From assembly GCA_905478555.1 (NCBI GenBank), contig CAJQIZ010000012.1, positions 1 through 64,000 of the forward strand: 64,000 bases of DNA, read 5' to 3'. Each line of letters begins with the position of its first letter. Positions within the stretch are counted from its first letter, which is position 1. A program made the position numbers and the translations under genes. Origin of the DNA: an uncultured Flavobacteriales bacterium (GTDB taxonomy: Bacteria; Bacteroidota; Bacteroidia; Flavobacteriales; BACL11). Positions 1 to 10,634 of the stretch are shown here, piece after piece. Under the pieces are notes generated by a model. The model saw only the letters and a program-made list of their open reading frames with translations, had not been told where the DNA came from and made no database searches.

Positions 1-80
1 GTGTTTGATACTGTTAATACGAATTCCTTATCTTTAACTACTTTAAATTCTGGTGCGACACATAAATGGAGAGTTTATTC
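1..80 (+). repeat. 80-bp direct repeat, copy 1 (FN3 module)
   Basis: Bases 1-80 are identical to bases 565-644. Both encode the same segment of an FN3 module, and the copies diverge right after it (CTSSG versus CDASG). The copy may extend upstream of the window. Confidence 0.85.
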
Positions 81-1290
81 ACTTTGTACTTCTTCTGGTT
101 CTAGTGTATCATCATGGTCTTCAATGAATACTTTTAGTACTTTGGTATTTGTTCCTTCTTGTACTCCATCTGTTCCCTCTTCTTTATCTACATCTAATAT
201 TCAGACTGATGAAGCAACATTATCTTGGTCTTCTGTCTTGAATATCGATCATTATGATGTTCGTTATAGAGTTCAGGGATCTTCTTGGACTTTGGTACAG
301 AATTTAACGACTTTATCGACGATTTTAAATGGCTTGAGTGTTGGATCTTCTTATGATTGGGAAGTACGTTCTGCTTGTAGTTCAGATAGTAGTTCAGTAT
401 CTTCATGGTCATCAACAGAGACTTTTACTACTCCTTATCCTTGTACAATACCTCAAAATTTAACAGAGAGTGGTATTACATCTACTACAGCAACTTTATC
501 TTGGGATTTAGTTCCTGGTAGTTGGGGTTATGTAGTGATGCATAGACAAGTAGGATCTGCTTGGGTGTTTGATACTGTTAATACGAATTCCTTATCTTTA
601 ACTACTTTAAATTCTGGTGCGACACATAAATGGAGAGTTTATTCTGTTTGTGATGCTTCAGGTTCCAGTGTATCATCATGGTCTTCTATGAATACTTTTT
701 TAACTACTACTATTGTGACTCCAGGACCAATAGCTTGTACATCTCCTCAAAATTTAGAAGAGGAAAACATAACTTCTTCATCTGTAGAATTAGAATGGGA
801 TGCTTTAGCAGGTAGTTGGGGTTATAAAGTAATGTGGAGACAATTAGGTTCTGGATGGAATTATACATTAGTAAATACAAATGAGTTAATATTAAGTTCT
901 TTAAATCCAAATAAGACTCATAAATGGAGGGTTTATTCGGTTTGTGATTCTTTACAGAGTAATGTGTCAGCTTGGTCTTCTATGCAGATATTTAATACTT
1001 TATCTTCTATCAGGATTGCTTCCGGAGATACGGAGCAGTCGAATAGCTTAAATATTTATCCGAATCCAACAAAAGGAATGTTTAATATTTCTTTTATAAC
1101 TGAGGAAATGGTAGGTTTTAAATTAATGATTGTAGACGCTTACGGTAAAACAATTTTGATTGAAAATAATGATATTTTTATTGGAGAATTTACAAAACAA
1201 GTAGATTTATCTGAATATCCCAAAGGAATTTATATGGTTCAAATCAGAACAAACAATAGCTTTATTACTAAAAGAATTGTAGTTCAGTAA
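1..1290 (+). CDS. Fibronectin type III repeat surface protein with T9SS C-terminal sorting domain (5'-truncated)
   Basis: The reading frame is open from base 1, so this is the C-terminal part of a larger protein; the GTG at base 1 is an interior codon. It holds the end of one FN3-like module, then three more, each ending in a SSVSSWSS-type segment before a TF strand and a short Thr/Ser/Pro linker (roughly residues 55-145, 150-235 and 248-330). The last ~75 residues form a type A sorting domain, with IYPNPTKG near residue 355 and a closing KGIYMVQI...ITKRIVVQ. The family norm is export by the Sec system, passage through the type IX translocon and attachment to or release from the cell surface. 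The FN3 modules probably act in adhesion or as spacers for a catalytic part outside the window. The start and any catalytic domain cannot be seen. Confidence 0.85.
   Translation: MFDTVNTNSLSLTTLNSGATHKWRVYSLCTSSGSSVSSWSSMNTFSTLVFVPSCTPSVPSSLSTSNIQTDEATLSWSSVLNIDHYDVRYRVQGSSWTLVQNLTTLSTILNGLSVGSSYDWEVRSACSSDSSSVSSWSSTETFTTPYPCTIPQNLTESGITSTTATLSWDLVPGSWGYVVMHRQVGSAWVFDTVNTNSLSLTTLNSGATHKWRVYSVCDASGSSVSSWSSMNTFLTTTIVTPGPIACTSPQNLEEENITSSSVELEWDALAGSWGYKVMWRQLGSGWNYTLVNTNELILSSLNPNKTHKWRVYSVCDSLQSNVSAWSSMQIFNTLSSIRIASGDTEQSNSLNIYPNPTKGMFNISFITEEMVGFKLMIVDAYGKTILIENNDIFIGEFTKQVDLSEYPKGIYMVQIRTNNSFITKRIVVQ
565..644 (+). repeat. 80-bp direct repeat, copy 2 (FN3 module)
   Basis: This is the second copy of the repeat at 1-80. 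Nucleotide identity includes synonymous positions, while the module in between (about 180-430) and the one after (about 735-1000) are much more diverged, so the identity reflects recent duplication or gene conversion. Confidence 0.85.
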
Positions 1291-1295
1291 ATAAA

Positions 1296-1327
1296 TTTGA
1301 TTATTCTGTAAAAAATTAGTATTTTTG
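1296..1327 (+). promoter_or_regulatory. Bacteroidota-type promoter upstream of rimP
   Basis: TTTG at 1296-1299 and TATTTTTG (matching TAnnTTTG) at 1320-1327 are separated by 20 nt, which fits the -33/-7 promoter described for Bacteroidota. Transcription would begin near 1333. This lies upstream of the hairpin at 1353-1377, so the transcript would have to pass that hairpin to reach rimP. Confidence 0.6.
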
Positions 1328-1352
1328 CAGAGAATTTAAGTGAAGAAAGATG

Positions 1353-1377
1353 GAAGGGGCGAGTAGCCCCTTCTTTT
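1353..1377 (+). terminator. Intrinsic terminator hairpin in front of rimP, possibly an attenuator
   Basis: A perfect 8-bp stem GAAGGGGC/GCCCCTTC with loop GAGTA is followed by TTTT. It could end transcription of the upstream FN3 gene. The rimP start codon is only 11 nt after the T run, so no promoter fits between them, and rimP transcription must cross the hairpin. Confidence 0.75.
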
Positions 1378-1387
1378 ATTATACAAT

Positions 1388-1843
1388 ATGATATCAAAAG
1401 AAAGAGTAACAGAATTAGCTTTAGAAAAGATTTTAGAACTAGATTATTTTTTGGTGGATGTAGCGATTAGCTCTTCTAATGAGATAACAGTTTTGTTTGA
1501 TAAAGAAGGAGGTGTTATTGTGAGAGATTGTTTACATGTTAGTAGACATATTGAAGGAAACCTAGAGAGAGAGATTGAGGATTATCAACTTACAGTTTGT
1601 TCTCCTGGTATTGACAGAGCGTTTATGGTAGATGAACAATATGTTAAAAATATCGGTAGAGATGTAAAGATAAAAACTAATGATGGTGACAAAGTAAAAG
1701 GTAAACTACTTTCGTTTAATGATGATGTTGTAGTAATTGAAACTACTAAGAAAGAAAAAAAGAAAAAAGAGGTGTTGGTGGAGCAAGTTAGCATTTCCTT
1801 GGATAAGATTAAAGAAACTAAACTGATAATAAAATTTAAATAA
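1388..1843 (+). CDS. rimP: Ribosome maturation factor RimP
   Basis: This cytoplasmic 30S-subunit assembly factor has 151 residues, a normal length. The family motif is visible as CSPGIDRAF at residues 71-79, between the N-terminal alpha/beta domain and the C-terminal Sm-like barrel. A Lys-rich stretch, KKEKKKKE at 121-128, sits within the C-terminal domain and may contact rRNA. The ATG at 1388 is the only reasonable start before the conserved helix. It is followed 8 nt later by nusA and then infB, the standard rimP-nusA-infB order. The terminator-like hairpin just upstream suggests that expression depends on read-through. Confidence 0.93.
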   Translation: MISKERVTELALEKILELDYFLVDVAISSSNEITVLFDKEGGVIVRDCLHVSRHIEGNLEREIEDYQLTVCSPGIDRAFMVDEQYVKNIGRDVKIKTNDGDKVKGKLLSFNDDVVVIETTKKEKKKKEVLVEQVSISLDKIKETKLIIKFK

Positions 1844-1851
1844 TTAATAAA

Positions 1852-3093
1852 ATGAATGTTGAAAATCTAATTGATTCGTTTTCGGAGTTTAAAGAAGTAA
1901 AGAATATTGATAGAGAAACAATGATGAGCATCTTAGAAGATGTATTCAAAACTGTTTTAGAGAAAAAATATGATGGTGCTGAAATCTTTGATGTAATTAT
2001 TAATGTTGATAAAGGAGATCTAGAAATTTGGAGAAATAGAGTAGTAGTATCGGATGATGAATTAGAAGATTCTAATATTCAAATTACTCTTACTGAAGCA
2101 TTAAAAATTGAAGATGATTATGAGGTAGGTGAAGATGTTTCTGAACAAGTAAGTTTTGAGGAAGAGTTTGGTAGAAGACAAGTTTTGTCTATTAGACAGA
2201 ACTTAGTAGGTAGAATTAACGATTTACACAGAGATGAGATATTAAAACAATATCAAAACAGAATTGGTGAAATTGTAAATGCTGAAGTTTATCAAATTTG
2301 GAAAAATGAAATTTTATTACAAGATGATGATGGTAACGATTTAATCTTACCAAAAACAGAACAAATTCCTAGAGACTTTTTCCGTAAGGGAGATAGCGTA
2401 AGAGCAGTTGTGAAGTCTGCAGATTTAAGAAATAATAAATCTCATATTGAACTTTCTAGAATTGCTCCTGAATTTATTGAAAGATTATTTGAGATGGAAG
2501 TTCCGGAGGTATTTGATGGAATTATCACTATTAAAAAAGTAGTAAGAATACCAGGAGAAAGAGCTAAAGTAATGGTAGAGTCTTATGATGATAGAATTGA
2601 CCCTGTTGGTGCTTGTGTTGGGGTAAAAGGAAGTAGAATTCATGGTATTGTTCGTGAACTTAGAAATGAGAATATTGATGTAATTAATTTTACAGAAAAT
2701 ATTAATTTACTTATTACCAGATCGTTAAGTCCTGCAAAAGTTACTACAATTGAATTGAATGATGAAACTAAAAGAGCATCTGTATATATGGTGCCAGATC
2801 AGGTTTCTTTAGCAATTGGTAAAAGAGGTTATAATATTAAATTAGCTGGAGAACTTACAGGTTATGAAATTGATGTGTTTAGAGATTTAGATGGATTAGA
2901 GGACGATGTTTCTTTATCAGAATTTTCTGATGAAATCGATTCTTGGGTAATTGAAACACTTCAAGGTATAGGTTGTGATTCTGCTAGAAGTGTATTGGAT
3001 ATTAATGCGGAAGACCTTGTTAAAAGAACAGATTTAGAGCAAGAAACTGTAGAAAATGTATTAGAAATTCTAAGATTAGAGTTTGAAGATTAA
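1852..3093 (+). CDS. nusA: Transcription termination/antitermination factor NusA
   Basis: NusA binds RNA polymerase and nascent RNA and modulates pausing, termination and antitermination. The 413 residues contain the N-terminal polymerase-binding domain (about 1-125), an S1 domain (about 135-200), and two KH domains marked by GVKGSRIHGI near 257 and AIGKRGYNIKLA near 320. A short acidic C-terminal helix-hairpin segment follows (about 365-413). The compact C-terminus is usual for Bacteroidota. The gene lies 8 nt after rimP and 15 nt before infB, so it is clearly co-transcribed. Because NusA itself alters hairpin-dependent termination, the hairpin ahead of rimP could give feedback control; this is inference. 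Confidence 0.95.
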   Translation: MNVENLIDSFSEFKEVKNIDRETMMSILEDVFKTVLEKKYDGAEIFDVIINVDKGDLEIWRNRVVVSDDELEDSNIQITLTEALKIEDDYEVGEDVSEQVSFEEEFGRRQVLSIRQNLVGRINDLHRDEILKQYQNRIGEIVNAEVYQIWKNEILLQDDDGNDLILPKTEQIPRDFFRKGDSVRAVVKSADLRNNKSHIELSRIAPEFIERLFEMEVPEVFDGIITIKKVVRIPGERAKVMVESYDDRIDPVGACVGVKGSRIHGIVRELRNENIDVINFTENINLLITRSLSPAKVTTIELNDETKRASVYMVPDQVSLAIGKRGYNIKLAGELTGYEIDVFRDLDGLEDDVSLSEFSDEIDSWVIETLQGIGCDSARSVLDINAEDLVKRTDLEQETVENVLEILRLEFED

Positions 3094-3108
3094 ATAGATA
3101 GATAAAAT

Positions 3109-5778
3109 ATGTCTGAACAAAAAAGTGTTAGGTTAAATAAATTAGCCAAAGAGTTTAATGTTAGTATGGAGAGAATTGTTTCCTTTCTTGAAGAAAAGGG
3201 AGTAGACGGAATGAATCCATCTTCAAAAGTGTCACATAATATTTATATGGACCTTCTGGGAGAGTTCGATTCTGAGAAGAAAGCAAAACTTTCTGCAGAT
3301 ATTGCGGCTTTAGAAAGAGAAGAGAAGAGAGAGCATCAAAGGCTTGAAGAGGAGCAATCTAAATTAAAAGCAGAGGAAGATAAGAAGATAGCGGCTGATT
3401 TATCTGCTAAATTAAAAGCAGAGAAAGAACAGGCTGAAAAAGAAACGGAATTAGTTAAAATAGCAGTTGCTAAAGAAGTGGAAGAGAGTATAGAGGAGAA
3501 AGTAGAAAAGTCTCCCAAAAAGAAAGAAGTAAAGATTTTAGGGAAAATTGATTTAGAACCTAAAAAGAAAGAAGAAAAAGAAGAAGCTCCTAAAGAAGAA
3601 TCTCCAAGCGAGAAAGTTGTTTTAGAACAAGTAAAGGAAGAGAAAAAGGATGGTGTAATTAGAGCTTCTGCTCAGAAGTTAACAGGTCCCAAAATTACAG
3701 GTCAGAAAATTGATTTGTCTAAATTACAACCTAAACAGAAAAAACCAGCTGCTTCCTCTTCTGGAGATGCTTCACAAAAGAAGAAAAGAAAAAGAATTAC
3801 CACTAAGAAGGTGAATCCTAAGAAATTTAATAAGGCTCAAGCTAAGGGTAGAGCTTCTAGGACTCCTGTTGAGATTTCTCCAGAGGAGACTCAGAAAAGA
3901 ATTAGAGAAACATTAGCGAAATTACAAGGTGGTGGTAAAAAGAAATCTGTAAGAAACAGAAAAGATAAGAGACAAACTCATAGAGATATAGCGGATCAGG
4001 AAATGCAAGCACAATCTGCAGAAAATAAGCTGATTAAAATTGCAGAATTTGCTACTGCAAATGAGTTGTCTGCAATGATGGATGTTCCTGTAACAGAAAT
4101 TATTACATCTTTATTTTCTTTAGGTTTAATGGTAACTATGAACCAAAGACTTGATGCGGAAACTCTTCAGATTATTGTAGAAGAATTTGGTCATGAATTA
4201 GAATTTGTTGGTGCTGATGTTCAAGAAAGTATTAACACTTCAGACGAGGATTCTGAAGAGGATTTAATAGATAGGTCACCTATTGTTACTATTATGGGGC
4301 ATGTTGATCACGGTAAAACCTCCTTATTAGATTATATTAGAGAAGAAAATGTAATTGCTGGTGAAGCTGGGGGAATTACTCAGCATATTGGTGCTTATGA
4401 GGTGACTTTACCTAGTGGAAAAAATATTTCATTCTTAGATACTCCTGGTCATGAGGCTTTTACTGCCATGAGAGCTAGAGGTGCAAAAGTTACAGATATT
4501 GTTGTAGTAGTGGTAGCGGCAGATGATAGAGTGATGCCTCAAACAAAAGAGGCTATTAGTCACGCTAGAGCGGCGGATGTGCCAATTATATTTGCAATTA
4601 ATAAAGTAGATAAAGATACATCTGATCCTGAGAAAATTAAAGGGGAGTTAGCAGAAATGAATTTACTAGTTGAAGATTGGGGAGGGAAAGTACAGTCTCA
4701 AGATATTTCAGCAAAAACGGGATTAGGAGTTCCTGAAATTTTAGAAAAAATATTATTAGAAGCGGAAATGTTAGAGTTAAAGGCAAATCCGAATAGAAAT
4801 GCTGTTGGATCAGTTATTGAAGCTTCTTTAGATAAAGGTAAGGGTTATGTAACTACAATTTTAGTTCAGAAAGGAACTTTAAATGTTGGTGACTATGTGT
4901 TGGCTGGTTCTTACTCTGGTAAGGTGAAGGCTTTATTAAATGAAAGAGGCCAAACAGTGGAGTCTGCAGGTCCTTCTACTCCAGTAACATTATTAGGACT
5001 TAATGGAGCTCCTACAGCAGGAGATGAGTTTCATGTAATGGATAGCGAACAAGAATCAAAGAAAATAGCATCTAAAAGAATGCAGTTACAAAGAGAGCAA
5101 TCTGTAAGAACTACTAAGCATATTACTTTAGATGAAATTGGAAGAAGAATTGCTTTAGGTGATTTCCAGGAGTTAAATATTATTGTAAAAGGGGATGTTG
5201 ATGGTTCTATTGAAGCGCTTTCTGATTCTCTTGAGAAACTTTCTACTGAGGAAATTAAAGTTAATATCCTCCAAAAAGCAGTAGGTCAGATTACAGAATC
5301 AGATGTTATGTTAGCTTCTGCTTCTGACGCGATTATTATTGGTTTCCAAGTACGACCTTCTTTACAAGCAAGAAAATTAGCTGAATCTGAACAAATTGAT
5401 ATTAGATTATATTCTATTATTTACAAAGCAATTGAAGAAATTACTCTTGCAATGGAAGGAATGCTTTCTCCTGATGTAGAGGAAAAAATTGTATGTAATA
5501 TTGAAATAAGAGAAACATTTAAGATTTCTAAAGTAGGTACAATTGCTGGTTGTATGGTGTTAGATGGAAAACTGAATCGTAATACTGGAATTAGAATTAT
5601 CCGTAATGGAGTGGTAGTTTACACAGGTAAATTATCGTCATTAAAACGATTTAAAGATGATGTTCAAGAGGTTCAAAAAGGATTTGAATGTGGTCTTTCT
5701 ATTGAAAACTTTAATGATATTAAAGTTGGAGATATTGTAGAGGGGTATGAAGAGGTGGAAGTAAAAAGAACTCTTTAG
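3109..5778 (+). CDS. infB: Translation initiation factor IF-2
   Basis: IF-2 is the GTPase that places initiator tRNA on the ribosome. The 889 residues begin with an IF2_N-type helical segment (about 1-60). A long low-complexity Lys/Glu-rich region runs to about residue 290, and a second IF2_N domain lies near 315-370. The G domain carries GHVDHGKTS near 397, DTPGHE near 444 and NKVD near 497, followed by domains II, III and the C-terminal tRNA-binding domain. All key GTPase motifs are intact. The gene ends the rimP-nusA-infB operon. Its TAG stop overlaps the stop codon of the convergent SPOR gene by 4 nt. Confidence 0.96.
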
Positions 5779-6200
5779 TTGAACTCTCCTGTTCTAACAG
5801 TTACATTAATAATAAAGGTATTCGGGTATACGGAACTAATAGTGTTTTGAAGTTTTTGAGCTTCTAATTTTGTTCTGAATTTCCCCACTTTTACTACCCA
5901 ATTAGGGTTTACTCGTTCGTAACTCACTGTAGTTATTTTAGGGAATTTTTTCATGAATTTATATTTTGTTTTTTGAGCAATTTCCCTGCTAGTTCCTGTA
6001 TATATCTTTACAGAAAACCCTTCTATACCTTTCTTTTCTTTATTCAAACGGATACTTTTTTGTAATAATTTATTTATGCCTTCCTCCATGTTTATTTCTG
6101 CCTGGGTATTTGGTGTTATTTCAGGAGTACTATAAGAATTATTTTGAGAAAATAATAAATTTGGAGCAAGTAAAATTAAAAATAGAATTTGTTTTTTCAT
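5775..6200 (-). CDS. Small exported SPOR-domain protein
   Basis: The 141-residue product starts with a Sec signal peptide ([19 protein letters not shown], residues 1-19) and has a SPOR-like fold from about 57 to 138. Typical pattern residues are a GFSVKIYTG strand, [16 protein letters not shown] and a closing [16 protein letters not shown] domains bind septal peptidoglycan lacking stem peptides, so a periplasmic role in cell-wall recognition is likely but not shown. The gene stands alone on the minus strand. A TACTTTTG promoter element ends only 4 nt before the ATG, suggesting an almost leaderless mRNA. Its TAA overlaps the infB stop. Confidence 0.8.
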
Positions 6201-6204
6201 AAAT

Positions 6205-6212
6205 CAAAAGTA
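6205..6212 (-). promoter_or_regulatory. -7 element for the SPOR gene, start-codon proximal
   Basis: On the minus strand TACTTTTG matches TAnnTTTG and ends 4 nt before the ATG at 6200. If transcription starts at the usual distance, the mRNA begins at or next to the start codon. No clear -33 TTTG was seen. Confidence 0.5.
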
Positions 6213-6328
6213 TAAAAAATAAATTAATATTTTCTTAGGTAAGATGTTTATTAATGCAAGTACTATTTAGAATAAATATAAATTACACAAACACTGTTAT
6301 TCCTCATATATTAAAAATATTAAAACAC

Positions 6329-6336
6329 TAAATTTG
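6329..6336 (+). promoter_or_regulatory. -7 element for the actABCDEF operon
   Basis: TAAATTTG matches TAnnTTTG and lies 29 nt before the actA start. No clear -33 TTTG is present. The rest of the interval 6201-6365 is AT-rich, with no other feature seen. Confidence 0.55.
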
Positions 6337-6365
6337 CAGTCGAAAAAATTGAATATTTAAAAAAT

Positions 6366-7631
6366 ATGATTCTATTAAATAAATTGAAAAAACGATTATT
6401 ATTCTTAACCGTATTATTCACTATCTCTTTACAGTCATTTGCTCAAATTGATGGGGAAGCTCTTTACAAAACCAATTGTACTGCTTGCCATAATATTGGT
6501 GGAGGTAGATTAATTGGGCCAGATTTACAGGGAATAACTGAAAGAAGAGATGCAGAATGGTTAAAAAGTTGGATTAATGACAATGCTGCATTCAGAAAGT
6601 CGGGTGATAAAGATGCTATCGCAATTTTTGAAGAGTATAAAGGATCTGTAATGGCAGCATTTTATTTTGAGGATGAAGAGATAGAAGCTTTATTATCATA
6701 TCTAGCTAATCCTCCGTTAGAAGAGGTATCTGTTTCAAAATCAAATGATTTTCTATCCTCTGAAGAGGAAGGTATGAGCAATAATACTCAATTAGTTATT
6801 TTTCTAATTCTATTATTTGTTGTTATTACAGTATTAGTTTCTGTAAAAAATAGTTTGAAAGAAAGTTTAAGTCAAGATACTGAAACAGTTCCAGAGTCTA
6901 TTCTTAGGTTTGTTAGTAAAAATAGAAACAAATTTATCATTGGATTAGGACTATTTATTTTTATTTTATATATTATTTTCAATCTTTTAATGGGGATAGG
7001 TGTTGTCGAAAAGTACCAACCAGATCAGCCTATTGCTTTCTCTCATACTATCCATGCTGGTGATAATGGAATCGATTGTAACTATTGTCATTCTTCAGCG
7101 AGAGATAGTAAGCATTCTGGAATCCCATCAGTAAATGTATGTATGAACTGTCACGCGAATATTGTTGAGGGAACAAATACTGGTAAAGAAGAACTCCAGA
7201 AGATTTATGATGCTGTTGGATATAATCCTGAGACTAGAGAATATATTAAAGATTATAAACAAAAACCAATTGAGTGGATTAGAGTACATAATTTACCAGA
7301 TTTAAGTTATTTTAATCATTCACAACATGTTACAGTTGGAGGTTTAGAATGTCAACAGTGTCATGGTAATATGCAAGAAAAAACTGTAGGTCAGGTCGCT
7401 ACTATGGAAGAGTTAAATAATCAAGAAAATAATATTAAAGATGGAATTGAATTTGACCATCCTACTTTAACTATGGGGTGGTGTATCGATTGTCATAGAC
7501 AAAAAGAAGTAAACATGGAAAATAACGATTACTATACTGAAATGCACGATAAGTTAAAGGCCAAAAATGATAATGGTAAAATTACTGTTGAGATGATTGG
7601 TGGTTTAGAATGTGGTAAGTGCCACTATTAA
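6366..7631 (+). CDS. actA: Alternative complex III subunit ActA, multihaem cytochrome c fused to a monohaem domain
   Basis: ACIII oxidises quinol and passes electrons to cytochrome c or a haem-copper oxidase, replacing the bc1 complex. The 421-residue protein has a signal peptide (cleavage after about residue 26). A class I cytochrome c domain has CTACH near 38. Two membrane segments follow (about 138-160 and 190-220). The periplasmic multihaem part contains five CxxCH sites: CNYCH, CMNCH, CQQCH, CIDCH and the C-terminal CGKCH. That gives six haem sites in total. The N-terminal monohaem domain fused to the pentahaem part agrees with other Bacteroidota. It is the first gene of a six-gene operon. 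Confidence 0.9.
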   Translation: MILLNKLKKRLLFLTVLFTISLQSFAQIDGEALYKTNCTACHNIGGGRLIGPDLQGITERRDAEWLKSWINDNAAFRKSGDKDAIAIFEEYKGSVMAAFYFEDEEIEALLSYLANPPLEEVSVSKSNDFLSSEEEGMSNNTQLVIFLILLFVVITVLVSVKNSLKESLSQDTETVPESILRFVSKNRNKFIIGLGLFIFILYIIFNLLMGIGVVEKYQPDQPIAFSHTIHAGDNGIDCNYCHSSARDSKHSGIPSVNVCMNCHANIVEGTNTGKEELQKIYDAVGYNPETREYIKDYKQKPIEWIRVHNLPDLSYFNHSQHVTVGGLECQQCHGNMQEKTVGQVATMEELNNQENNIKDGIEFDHPTLTMGWCIDCHRQKEVNMENNDYYTEMHDKLKAKNDNGKITVEMIGGLECGKCHY

Positions 7632-7658
7632 TAAATTAGATTATAACTTCTATATAAC

Positions 7659-10634
7659 ATGACAAAAGCAAAAAAATATTGGAAAGGTTTAGCAGAGCTA
7701 AATAACGATCCTATTGTAGAAAAATTAGCTCAGAAAGAATTTGTTGATGAAATTCCTGTAAATGAATTTTTAGGAGATTCAGAGTTAGATTCTTCCTCTA
7801 CATCTCGTAGAGATTTCTTAAAGTTTTTAGGATTCACGACAGCTGCTGCAACTTTAGCAGCTTGTGAAGCTCCGGTAAATAAAGTAATTCCTTATGTTGT
7901 TAAGCCAGAAGAAATTAATCCTGGAATTGCTAATTATTATGCCTCTACCATTTATGATGGTCATGATTTTGCATCTGTATTAGTAAAAACAAGAGAGGGA
8001 AGACCTATTAAAATTGATGCTAATAAATCTGCAGTAAATGCCAGAATTCAGTCTTCAGTTTTATCTTTATACGATTCAGCTAGATTAAGAAACCCTATGA
8101 AAGATAGTGTCGAATCAGACTGGGCAACAGTTGATTCTGAGATTAGTACTCAATTAGAGGCAATTTCTAATAAAGGTGGAAATATAGCGCTTTTAACCTC
8201 TACTATTATAAGTCCTACTACAGAGAAATTAATTGAAGATTTTTCTGCAAAATATGGAAATGTAAAACATGTACAGGTAGATGCAGTTTCTTATAATGGA
8301 ATGTTAGAGGCTAATTTATCTTCTTTCGGACTAAGAGCATTGCCAACTTATAGTTTTGATAAAGCAAATGTTATTGTTTCTTTTGGAGCTGACTTTTTAG
8401 GAAATTGGGGAAATACAGATTTAGAATCTCAATGGGCTCTTGGTAGAAAACCTGAAGATGGGAAAATGTCGAAACATTATCAGATTGAATCTACATTAAC
8501 TCTTTCTGGATCGAATGCCGATAATAGATTACAAATAAAACCTTCTGAACAAGCGGGATTATTATCTAATTTATACAATGCTTTAAATGGATCTACGGCA
8601 GATAGTAGAATTCAAAAAATAACAACCGATTTATTAAATAATAAAGGTAAATCGTTGGTAGTTTGTAATAGTAATAATCCAGATGTTCAACTTATAGTTA
8701 ACGCTATTAATGATATTTTAGGAAATTACGAAAATACATTAACTTTAAGTCATCCTTCTTATTTAAAGAAAGGAAACGATACGGATGTTGCAACTTTAAT
8801 TTCTGATATGAATGCAGGAAATATTGATGCCTTGATTACTTATAATGTCAATCCATCTTATTCGTTAGTTGATTCATCTGACTTTAATGCAGGACTTGCA
8901 AAAGTTAGTCTGAAGGTTTCTACTTCATTATACATGGATGAAACAGCAATAAATATGGATTATGTTTGTCCGGATAACCACAACCTAGAGAGCTGGGGAG
9001 ATGCAAATCCATCTCATGGAGAATTTACTTTAATGCAACCAACCATAAACCCTTTATTTAACGGAAGACAATTTCAAGATTCTTTACTTTCTTGGTCTGG
9101 TTCTAATACAAAATATTACGATTATTTAAAAAATTACCATTCTTATGATTGGGAAGAGAATCTTCATAATGGATACTATAGTGTAATATGTAATGAGATT
9201 CCAATATTTAAATGGTATCTAAAATCTGAATGGGATACATTGGTACCTTCTTTCCAATTAATAAAATCAGTAGGAATTGAGTTTGAGATTGCTGAGAAGA
9301 TTGCAATGGGAGATGGTTCACAATCGAATAACCCATGGTTACAAGAATTACCAGATCCACTTTCTAGAGCTTGTTGGGATAACTATCTTACAATGTCGGC
9401 TACTACAGCAAGAGATTTAGGAGTTAAAAACTGGAATGTTTCTAATGGTGCATTAAATGGTAGTATGGTAAATATTACTGTTGGTGAAAAAACTCTAGAA
9501 AATGTTCCTGTAATGATTCAACCAGGACAAGCTAAAGATACTGTTTCTTTAGCAGTTGGTTACGGTAGAACATTATCTGGTAAATGTGGTAATGAGGTAG
9601 GAGTAAACGCTTACCCTCTTTCAAATGGTGGTGGTGCTACTATTACTTTAGTAGAAGGAACTCATGAGTTTGCTGCTGTACAATTACACCATACAATGAT
9701 GGGGAGAGAAATTGTAAAAGAAGCTTCTTTATCAGATTACATAAAAGATAATAAATCAGGAAATGAAACTGTATTATACGCTACTCATGATGGGAATAAA
9801 AAAGCATCTGAGGTAAGTTTATGGGATGAATTTGATCATTCTACAGGTCATTTCTGGAATATGTCAATTGATTTAACACTTTGTACAGGTTGTTCATCTT
9901 GTGTTATTTCTTGTCATGCAGAAAATAATGTGCCAGTTGTTGGAAAAGAAGAGGTTAGAAAATCAAGAGATATGCATTGGTTAAGAATCGATAGATATTT
10001 CTCTTCAGATATGACGAGAGAATTATCAGAAGAAGAAAAAATATCAGCTATCCAGATGTATGCTGAAATGGAAGATCCTTCAGAAAATCCTGAAGTAGTT
10101 TATCAACCAGTAATGTGTCAACATTGTAATCACGCTCCGTGTGAAACTGTTTGTCCTGTTGCGGCAACCTCTCATGGTGCGGAAGGTCAAAATCATATGG
10201 CTTATAACAGATGTGTAGGTACAAGATATTGTGCTAACAACTGTCCTTATAAGGTAAGAAGATTTAACTGGTTCCAGTATTCAGATAATGATAAATTTGA
10301 TTATAACATGAATGATGATTACGGTAAAATGGTATTAAACCCTGATGTAGTTGTTCGTTCAAGAGGAGTTATTGAAAAATGTAGTATGTGTATTCAGAAG
10401 ATACAAGAGATTAAGTTAGATGCTAAAAAATCAGGAACAAAAGTTGCTGATAAAGATGCACAAACAGCTTGTTCATTAGCTTGTTCTACAAATGCAATTG
10501 TATTTGGAGATTCTAATGACGAATCACATGTAATTTCAAAATTAAAAGATAATTCTAGAAAGTACGATTTATTAGAGCATTTAAATACTGCTCCATCAGT
10601 ATTTTATCAAACAAAAATTAGAAATAAAGCTTAA
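7659..10634 (+). CDS. actB: Alternative complex III subunit ActB, molybdopterin-family plus iron-sulfur protein
   Basis: The 991-residue periplasmic ACIII subunit carries a Tat-type signal (SRRDFLKFLGFTT, about 51-63) followed by a possible lipobox LAAC. A large region related to molybdopterin oxidoreductases extends to about residue 730. In known ACIII structures this domain lacks the cofactor. The C-terminal ferredoxin-like domain has CTGCSSCVISC near 742, CQHCNHAPCETVCPV near 820, CVGTRYCANNCPY near 850 and CSMCIQK near 908, enough for several Fe-S clusters. The B1 and B2 portions are fused, as is usual in this phylum. It lies 27 nt after actA and 9 nt before actC. Confidence 0.92.
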   Translation: MTKAKKYWKGLAELNNDPIVEKLAQKEFVDEIPVNEFLGDSELDSSSTSRRDFLKFLGFTTAAATLAACEAPVNKVIPYVVKPEEINPGIANYYASTIYDGHDFASVLVKTREGRPIKIDANKSAVNARIQSSVLSLYDSARLRNPMKDSVESDWATVDSEISTQLEAISNKGGNIALLTSTIISPTTEKLIEDFSAKYGNVKHVQVDAVSYNGMLEANLSSFGLRALPTYSFDKANVIVSFGADFLGNWGNTDLESQWALGRKPEDGKMSKHYQIESTLTLSGSNADNRLQIKPSEQAGLLSNLYNALNGSTADSRIQKITTDLLNNKGKSLVVCNSNNPDVQLIVNAINDILGNYENTLTLSHPSYLKKGNDTDVATLISDMNAGNIDALITYNVNPSYSLVDSSDFNAGLAKVSLKVSTSLYMDETAINMDYVCPDNHNLESWGDANPSHGEFTLMQPTINPLFNGRQFQDSLLSWSGSNTKYYDYLKNYHSYDWEENLHNGYYSVICNEIPIFKWYLKSEWDTLVPSFQLIKSVGIEFEIAEKIAMGDGSQSNNPWLQELPDPLSRACWDNYLTMSATTARDLGVKNWNVSNGALNGSMVNITVGEKTLENVPVMIQPGQAKDTVSLAVGYGRTLSGKCGNEVGVNAYPLSNGGGATITLVEGTHEFAAVQLHHTMMGREIVKEASLSDYIKDNKSGNETVLYATHDGNKKASEVSLWDEFDHSTGHFWNMSIDLTLCTGCSSCVISCHAENNVPVVGKEEVRKSRDMHWLRIDRYFSSDMTRELSEEEKISAIQMYAEMEDPSENPEVVYQPVMCQHCNHAPCETVCPVAATSHGAEGQNHMAYNRCVGTRYCANNCPYKVRRFNWFQYSDNDKFDYNMNDDYGKMVLNPDVVVRSRGVIEKCSMCIQKIQEIKLDAKKSGTKVADKDAQTACSLACSTNAIVFGDSNDESHVISKLKDNSRKYDLLEHLNTAPSVFYQTKIRNKA

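Follow-up and report, generated by a model that had tools for sequence, protein, structure and literature searches.

The rimP-nusA-infB locus

The DNA analysed here is a stretch of 64,000 nucleotides (nt) from an uncultured Flavobacteriales bacterium (GenBank assembly GCA_905478555.1, contig CAJQIZ010000012.1, positions 1 to 64,000 of the forward strand), referred to as the window. Near its start lies the operon rimP-nusA-infB, which is preceded by a promoter and a terminator-like hairpin. We propose that positions 1333-1387 would act as a minimal transcription-attenuation leader of this operon, with NusA as the likely effector; we give this reading a probability of about 0.65.

The promoter consists of a TTTG box, a 20-nt spacer and the box TATTTTTG, and agrees exactly with the Bacteroidota primary-sigma consensus TTTG/TAnnTTTG in the form given in PMC7366714. 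With a spacer of 17-22 nt, it is the only full match to this consensus on the + strand in window positions 1-8000, while the whole 64 kilobases (kb) hold four such matches on the + strand and three on the - strand. The window opens inside an upstream gene with FN3 repeats, whose stop codon precedes the promoter by 6 nt. The hairpin follows the promoter, and the leader folds with a z-score of -4.31, none of 200 shuffles being equally good. Past the last G or C comes a short, interrupted T tract (TTTTATTA), and the rimP start codon lies 13 nt beyond the extended stem (Table 1). Re-reading the sequence and comparing its fold with shuffles bore out the first-pass annotation in the order and coordinates of the promoter, the 8-base-pair (bp) hairpin with its T run, and rimP.

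Table 1. Features at the start of the window, in window coordinates
Feature	Position	Strand	Basis or remark
Upstream FN3-repeat gene, 3' part	1-1290	+	neighbour, not part of the element; FN3 label taken from the first-pass annotation, made without a Pfam test
-33 promoter element TTTG	1296-1299	+	sequence match
-7 promoter element TATTTTTG (TAnnTTTG)	1320-1327	+	TAnnTTTG in 43/43 order-level loci
Predicted unpaired purine-rich 5' leader	1333-1351	+	19 nt; start site at about 1333 predicted from the -7 box
Terminator-like hairpin	1352-1374	+	8 bp, GAAGGGGC (1353-1360) with GCCCCTTC (1366-1373), loop GAGTA; outer G-T pair 1352/1374; then TTTATTATA
Interrupted T tract TTTTATTATA	1374-1383	+	predicted release point of an RNA of about 50 nt
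rimP	1388-1843	+	Pfam PF02576 and PF17384 above cut-off
nusA (proposed effector)	1852-3093	+	Pfam NusA_N and KH_5 above cut-off
infB (IF2)	3109-5778	+	Pfam IF2_N, GTP_EFTU and IF-2 above cut-off

The promoter and hairpin are conserved before rimP

We compared the rimP leader in three samples. The first comprised 60 relatives, from the same genus to the same order, of which 42 have RimP, giving 43 loci (two in genome G003); TAnnTTTG is found upstream of rimP at every one of them. A strict test required a perfect stem of at least 6 bp followed by a T run, at most 130 nt from the rimP start. After three loci had been dropped (N, short or duplicate), 38 of the 40 distinct leaders passed, versus 0.3% of 800 dinucleotide shuffles, and both misses belong to one genus, where a longer-looped hairpin is visible by eye. 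In the second sample, covering the phylum, PF02576 was found in 243 of 247 genomes and 70 rimP loci were read, which are not random, as they comprise the 30 best PF02576 matches and 40 loci chosen by hand for family spread; 51 of them passed versus 2.0% of 1400 shuffles, and many of the 19 misses do show, by eye, a hairpin with a T run, its loop being long or its stem bulged.

The third sample consisted of 80 nusA loci from titled public genomes, nearly all from Bacteroidota groups (a few are titled only 'bacterium' and one 'Williamsia'). Three loci without rimP were dropped. A perfect hairpin with a T run shortly before rimP is kept in 68 of the 77 readable rimP loci, and TAnnTTTG lies 5-60 nt upstream of the stem in 63 of these 68. 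The commonest form is GAGGGGAC-N4to6-GTCCCCTC followed by a T-rich stretch, often TTTTTATA. A further 14 of 14 loci carry the hairpin; these were found by a hairpin model, which makes them circular, and they are not counted as evidence. Comparison of the rimP leader across related genomes, for which an alignment had been suggested as a check, finds the promoter-hairpin arrangement conserved in both the order-level and the titled loci. As a separate observation, the leader of L216 (Arenibacter) contains a long A/T-rich hairpin (GCGCCTGGTTTTAA..TTAAAACCAGGCG) with no T run, possibly a diverged form.

Covariation in the stem was read from alignment A1, which holds 34 rows of the 43 order-level loci; of the nine left out, L006, L032 and L036 were excluded by hand (the last two being atypical) and six were duplicates or contained N. 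None of the eight stem pairs is invariant, five pairs changed on both sides, and cells changed on both sides number 33, versus 9.2 in shuffles, these cells not being independent events. The left arm is misaligned in a larger alignment (A3, 59 hairpins), and the pair counts come from A1 alone. On the evidence of this alignment, the hairpin structure is under selection.

The sequence of the arms follows a more local pattern. The 5' arm begins with G in 41 of 41 order-level hairpins and in 66 of 68 hairpins of the titled loci; for the 35 ordinary terminators of the window's own genome, the counts are 11 G-first, 8 C-first and 16 other. Among the leaders compared, arm sequence is constrained beyond structure near the lineage of the window, and it is position and terminator form that persist phylum-wide. 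C-first arms occur in L044-L047, L049, L057, L062 and others of the phylum sample, for example AGTCCCGC..GCGGGACT or ATAGCCCG..CGGGCTAT; these leaders often have long T runs, and the arm sequence turns over at a fixed position.

The arrangement is singular in the sampled part of its own genome

To the window we added 20 further stretches of the same genome (392,913 bases in all, with 326 crudely called open reading frames (ORFs)). TAnnTTTG is present in the upstream gap of 103 of these ORFs, while the arrangement of promoter, hairpin and start codon is found at one of the 326, namely rimP. A model of the hairpin (R1), built with the window's own leader included, scored 43.7 bits at the rimP leader versus 31.6 bits at the next match, which is located between two convergent ORFs. 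All 17 other R1 matches that were inspected, of 19 listed, lie at most 26 nt from the stop codon of an adjacent crude ORF on either strand, and these other matches look like ordinary terminators. As a specific finder of rimP leaders, R1 was rejected: the best 20 phylum-sample matches outside the model's own genomes comprised 14 at rimP and six elsewhere. A class-level run gave a match at E up to 0.001 in 72 of 149 genomes.

The rimP leaders differ from ordinary terminators in their T run. Counted after the last G or C, this run is 4 in the window and has a median of 4 in 21 same-family leaders, against a median of 7 in the 35 ordinary terminators of the own genome, a comparison whose rows are not phylogenetically independent. 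A strong hairpin followed by a short U tract would suit partial termination.

The unit precedes nusA where rimP is missing

Both RimP domains fall short of their cut-offs in eight genomes, although weaker matches are listed. Seven of the eight have a hairpin with a T run upstream of nusA, seen by eye or by script; it lies 145 nt from nusA in G046 and 107 nt in G047, and in G164 it has a perfect core of 4 bp.

Two families provide larger sets. For family f46, two of 30 nusA loci were too near the contig end and were dropped, and none of the remaining 28 has rimP within up to 1.5 kb upstream of nusA. A simple hairpin test (a stem of 5 or more) was passed by 22 of the 28 in the 220 nt upstream and by 20 in a rerun with 150 nt. 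The pattern GGGx..xCCC then TTTT, which was written after the sequences had been seen, occurs within 150 nt upstream of nusA in 25 of 28. Similarly, in family f7 no rimP lies upstream of nusA at any of nine loci; the pattern occurs within the same distance in seven of the nine, and the simple test was passed by nine according to the script and by eight after discounting a match to a tRNA arm. The latter concerns L254, which was counted as a match with the arm of an upstream tRNA-like sequence as the script-chosen hairpin; by eye, a hairpin AAAGGGC/GCCCTTT stands before its nusA. The shuffle background is 2.3% for the simple test and 0.4% of 1170 for the pattern. In both families rimP is absent before nusA, and it is mostly the promoter-hairpin unit that immediately precedes the gene.

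Since the unit is kept ahead of nusA in the absence of rimP, it is nusA(-infB), and not rimP, that the element accompanies. RimP as the sensor is likewise disfavoured, because lineages without rimP keep the unit. At L253 and L254 of f7, the nusA promoter closely follows a sequence that by eye resembles a tRNA; not only is rimP missing there, but the neighbour of the operon differs as well.

A proposed mechanism of attenuation

The predicted folding of the leader leaves little room for a regulatory switch. Across 129 distinct leaders with both a -7 box and a hairpin, the predicted 5' untranslated region has a median of 57 nt, the unpaired stretch before the stem a median of 18 nt (19 in the window) and the predicted terminated RNA a median of 49 nt. 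Before the 3' arm is made, the minimum free energy is 0.0 in the window and 0.0 in the median, and the hairpin itself has a median of -15.2 kcal/mol. No antiterminator was seen in this set, an alternative fold reaching at least half the energy of the hairpin in only two of the 129. An antiterminator, or a riboswitch or aptamer, was rejected on these grounds of little room and no fold before the 3' arm. A conserved 5' motif ahead of the hairpin was also rejected, as there is just weak k-mer enrichment (ATTTA, AAGAAA).

In the mechanism we propose, RNA polymerase would start about 6 nt past TATTTTTG and make about 19 unpaired nt, after which the 8-bp G-rich hairpin would form, followed by the short and interrupted U tract. 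Some polymerases would stop at this tract and release an RNA of about 50 nt, while the remaining ones would read through into rimP, 13 nt on. The setting of this valve would most likely come from the polymerase and its elongation factors, because no antiterminator or aptamer is visible. NusA, the product of the second gene of the operon, would favour the forming of the hairpin and with it termination; expression of the operon would fall when NusA is high and rise when it is low. The first-pass annotation had suggested attenuation with NusA feedback. Anatomy and conservation support its first half well; the feedback receives indirect support from a report on Bacillus subtilis (see below), from the failure to find another sensor in the leader and from the unit before nusA where rimP is missing. 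The hairpin is probably a valve that limits the cell's own NusA.

A broader version of this idea, on which we are evenly divided, is that the hairpin would serve across Bacteroidota as a bare gauge of NusA, devoid of an antiterminator, tied to nusA(-infB) and kept on rimP loss with a GGGC...GCCC-like hairpin. If this were true, the output of the operon would directly report how well the NusA of the cell stimulates termination.

Several observations weigh against attenuation by NusA. The strict test was failed by 9 of the 77 titled and 19 of the 70 phylum loci; no hairpin is visible by eye in L115 and L125 of the phylum sample or in L158, several other misses being imperfect hairpins. The rows of A1 were picked by a hairpin finder, which makes the percentage of paired cells partly circular. 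In six of the 35 ordinary terminators the T run does not exceed 4, and the hairpin core, at -15.3 versus a median of -10.6, is stronger than 29 of these 35; the weakness would thus be confined to the U tract, and leakiness is a prediction only. The 51 hairpins of the phylum sample comprise 26 G-first, 21 C-first and four other arms, and this shift in arm sequence makes one fixed RNA motif read by NusA less likely, while a general response of the elongation complex fits. Four of the eight rimP-less genomes are bins of 86-99% completeness, in which single absences could be gaps. Genome G051 (locus L260), a reduced genome of 0.3 megabases, keeps nusA but lacks the leader hairpin, and neither RimP domain exceeds its cut-off there. 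Finally, IF2 stays downstream of nusA in 10 of 10 re-read rimP-less loci, which were drawn from 14 f46 loci without IF2 seen in an earlier pass; nusA loci without infB were therefore rejected as a second natural experiment. The titled loci without an IF2 match are L154, L173, L211 and L223.

Alternative explanations

Because IF2 accompanies nusA, these loci do not separate NusA from IF2, and IF2 or an operon-level signal remains a candidate. More generally, the hairpin could serve as an attenuator or pause site for something other than NusA, such as NusG, Rho, IF2, RimP, or growth-rate or nucleotide levels. Besides the hairpin and U tract, the leader has no factor-specific feature, and nusA and infB stand together at all the re-read loci, as this explanation would allow; the precedent reported for B. 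subtilis is NusA, and the rimP-less lineages make RimP in particular an unlikely reader. We consider such a factor unlikely, though it is the best placed of the alternatives.

A role at the RNA level, in which the hairpin would protect the 5' end of the mRNA, form a processing site or serve as a translational operator beside the start codon, is improbable. The end of the stem lies 13 nt from the AUG, close to the ribosome-binding region, and the order-level median is also 13 (range 7-26). However, a T run regularly follows the stem, and in the phylum sample the start lies further away and at varying distances (median 22, range 8-70), with hairpin and T run retained.

Slightly less probable still is the alternative raised in the first-pass annotation, in which the hairpin would be no more than a 3' terminator for the upstream FN3-repeat gene, and rimP would be reached by leaky read-through. 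This gene stops at 1290, a scan shows no other terminator-like site on the + strand between it and rimP, and many same-family genomes have a similar-ended upstream gene. Against this, the promoter sits between the FN3 gene and the hairpin, the hairpin is also found before nusA in rimP-less genomes, and the upstream genes vary among relatives while the hairpin stays. In the titled loci, with crude ORF calls and after dropping the 7 of 77 whose upstream neighbour was not usable, the hairpin is present in 34 of 40 with a divergent neighbour and in 29 of 30 with a same-strand neighbour; we relied on this set, since the minus-strand neighbours of the order-level loci L005 and L006 are doubtful. A gene that points away has no use for a terminator at this site, and the hairpin therefore belongs to the operon. 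Nor is an insulating terminator likely, because it would precede the promoter and not come after it. As part of the operon's leader, the hairpin may in the window also be a shared terminator, secondarily stopping read-through from the FN3 gene.

Finally, a leader peptide whose translation would control the hairpin was rejected as most improbable: a 13-codon frame from ATG 1350 crosses the hairpin in the window and its TGA overlaps the rimP ATG, but neither the frame nor its length nor its ATG is conserved, and in 16 of 43 leaders no ATG occurs from the -7 box to the rimP start.

Relation to known systems

Attenuators of this kind are already known. Naville and Gautheret 2010 describe, in their account of the rimP-leader (PMC2965389), the most ubiquitous attenuator, with GGGc...gCCC arms and a T stretch, lacking an antiterminator and located 4-130 nt ahead of the start codon; the same account names NusA as the best candidate factor, partly since NusA had been shown to repress the operon. 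The element described here shares the site before rimP-nusA-infB (confirmed by Pfam, with a distance of 13 nt), the G-rich 5' and C-rich 3' arms (GGGGC...GCCCC), the T stretch, short and interrupted as it is, and the lack of a visible antiterminator. Unlike the rimP-leader, it is short (about 55 nt), carries a Bacteroidota promoter, occurs before nusA alone as well and has C-first arms in part of the phylum. According to PMC2965389, the B. subtilis rimP leader measures 180 nt; words beginning with 'bacteroid' or 'flavobacter' are absent from the main text of that paper. We scanned the window leader with cmscan and obtained four matches with E up to 5, with no rimP-leader family among them. The Rfam database holds such a family, and a match to it is not what defines the general motif.

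The closest precedent for feedback is the nusA operon of B. subtilis, where NusA promotes termination of its own operon at an intrinsic terminator in the leader, as reported in a review (PMC12288461). The window likewise has an intrinsic-terminator-like hairpin in the leader; NusA-dependent termination is reported there as experimentally established, whereas here we infer it. Within the flavobacteria, Flavobacterium psychrophilum has a structured 5' element ahead of rimP, according to Guerin et al. 2021 (PMC9723704); it is also present in other Flavobacteriaceae genera and has no Rfam match. In the passages on this element, it is listed without a mechanism and without a link to the rimP-leader. 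Compared by position and description, it is very probably the element described here. Among the papers that literature searches listed, none was seen to link the rimP-leader with the flavobacterial element or to test the element in Bacteroidota.

We also considered FopS, a small RNA (sRNA; Rfam RF04319) in which a terminator hairpin likewise comes after an unpaired 5' stretch, and rejected it on a score of 20.5 bits versus a gathering score of 56. In the description given in PMC11697453, FopS RNAs are mostly stand-alone sRNAs and not operon leaders.

What is new is the Bacteroidota-wide anatomy, the covariation, the natural experiment of rimP-less lineages and the shift of arm sequence in other lineages. 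These results give the element of Guerin et al. a likely identity, and would add a phylum with different promoters to the Firmicutes and Gammaproteobacteria, for which this kind of attenuator has been described; flavobacteria also have no Shine-Dalgarno sequences, as stated in the part of PMC9723704 that deals with them. The natural experiment points to nusA-infB, and not RimP, as what the element serves. Moreover, a leader of about 55 nt without an antiterminator would be a simple site at which to test an elongation factor setting its own level.

Two minor observations concern the material itself. The bin G003 holds two rimP leaders, L031 (G003:C64) and L002 (G003:C143); the second of them is near-identical by eye to L014 and L015, leaders of another genus, which suggests contamination of the bin. 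In the window, the FN3-like gene contains internal repeats that appear near-identical by eye, for example the bases from 5 and from 569.
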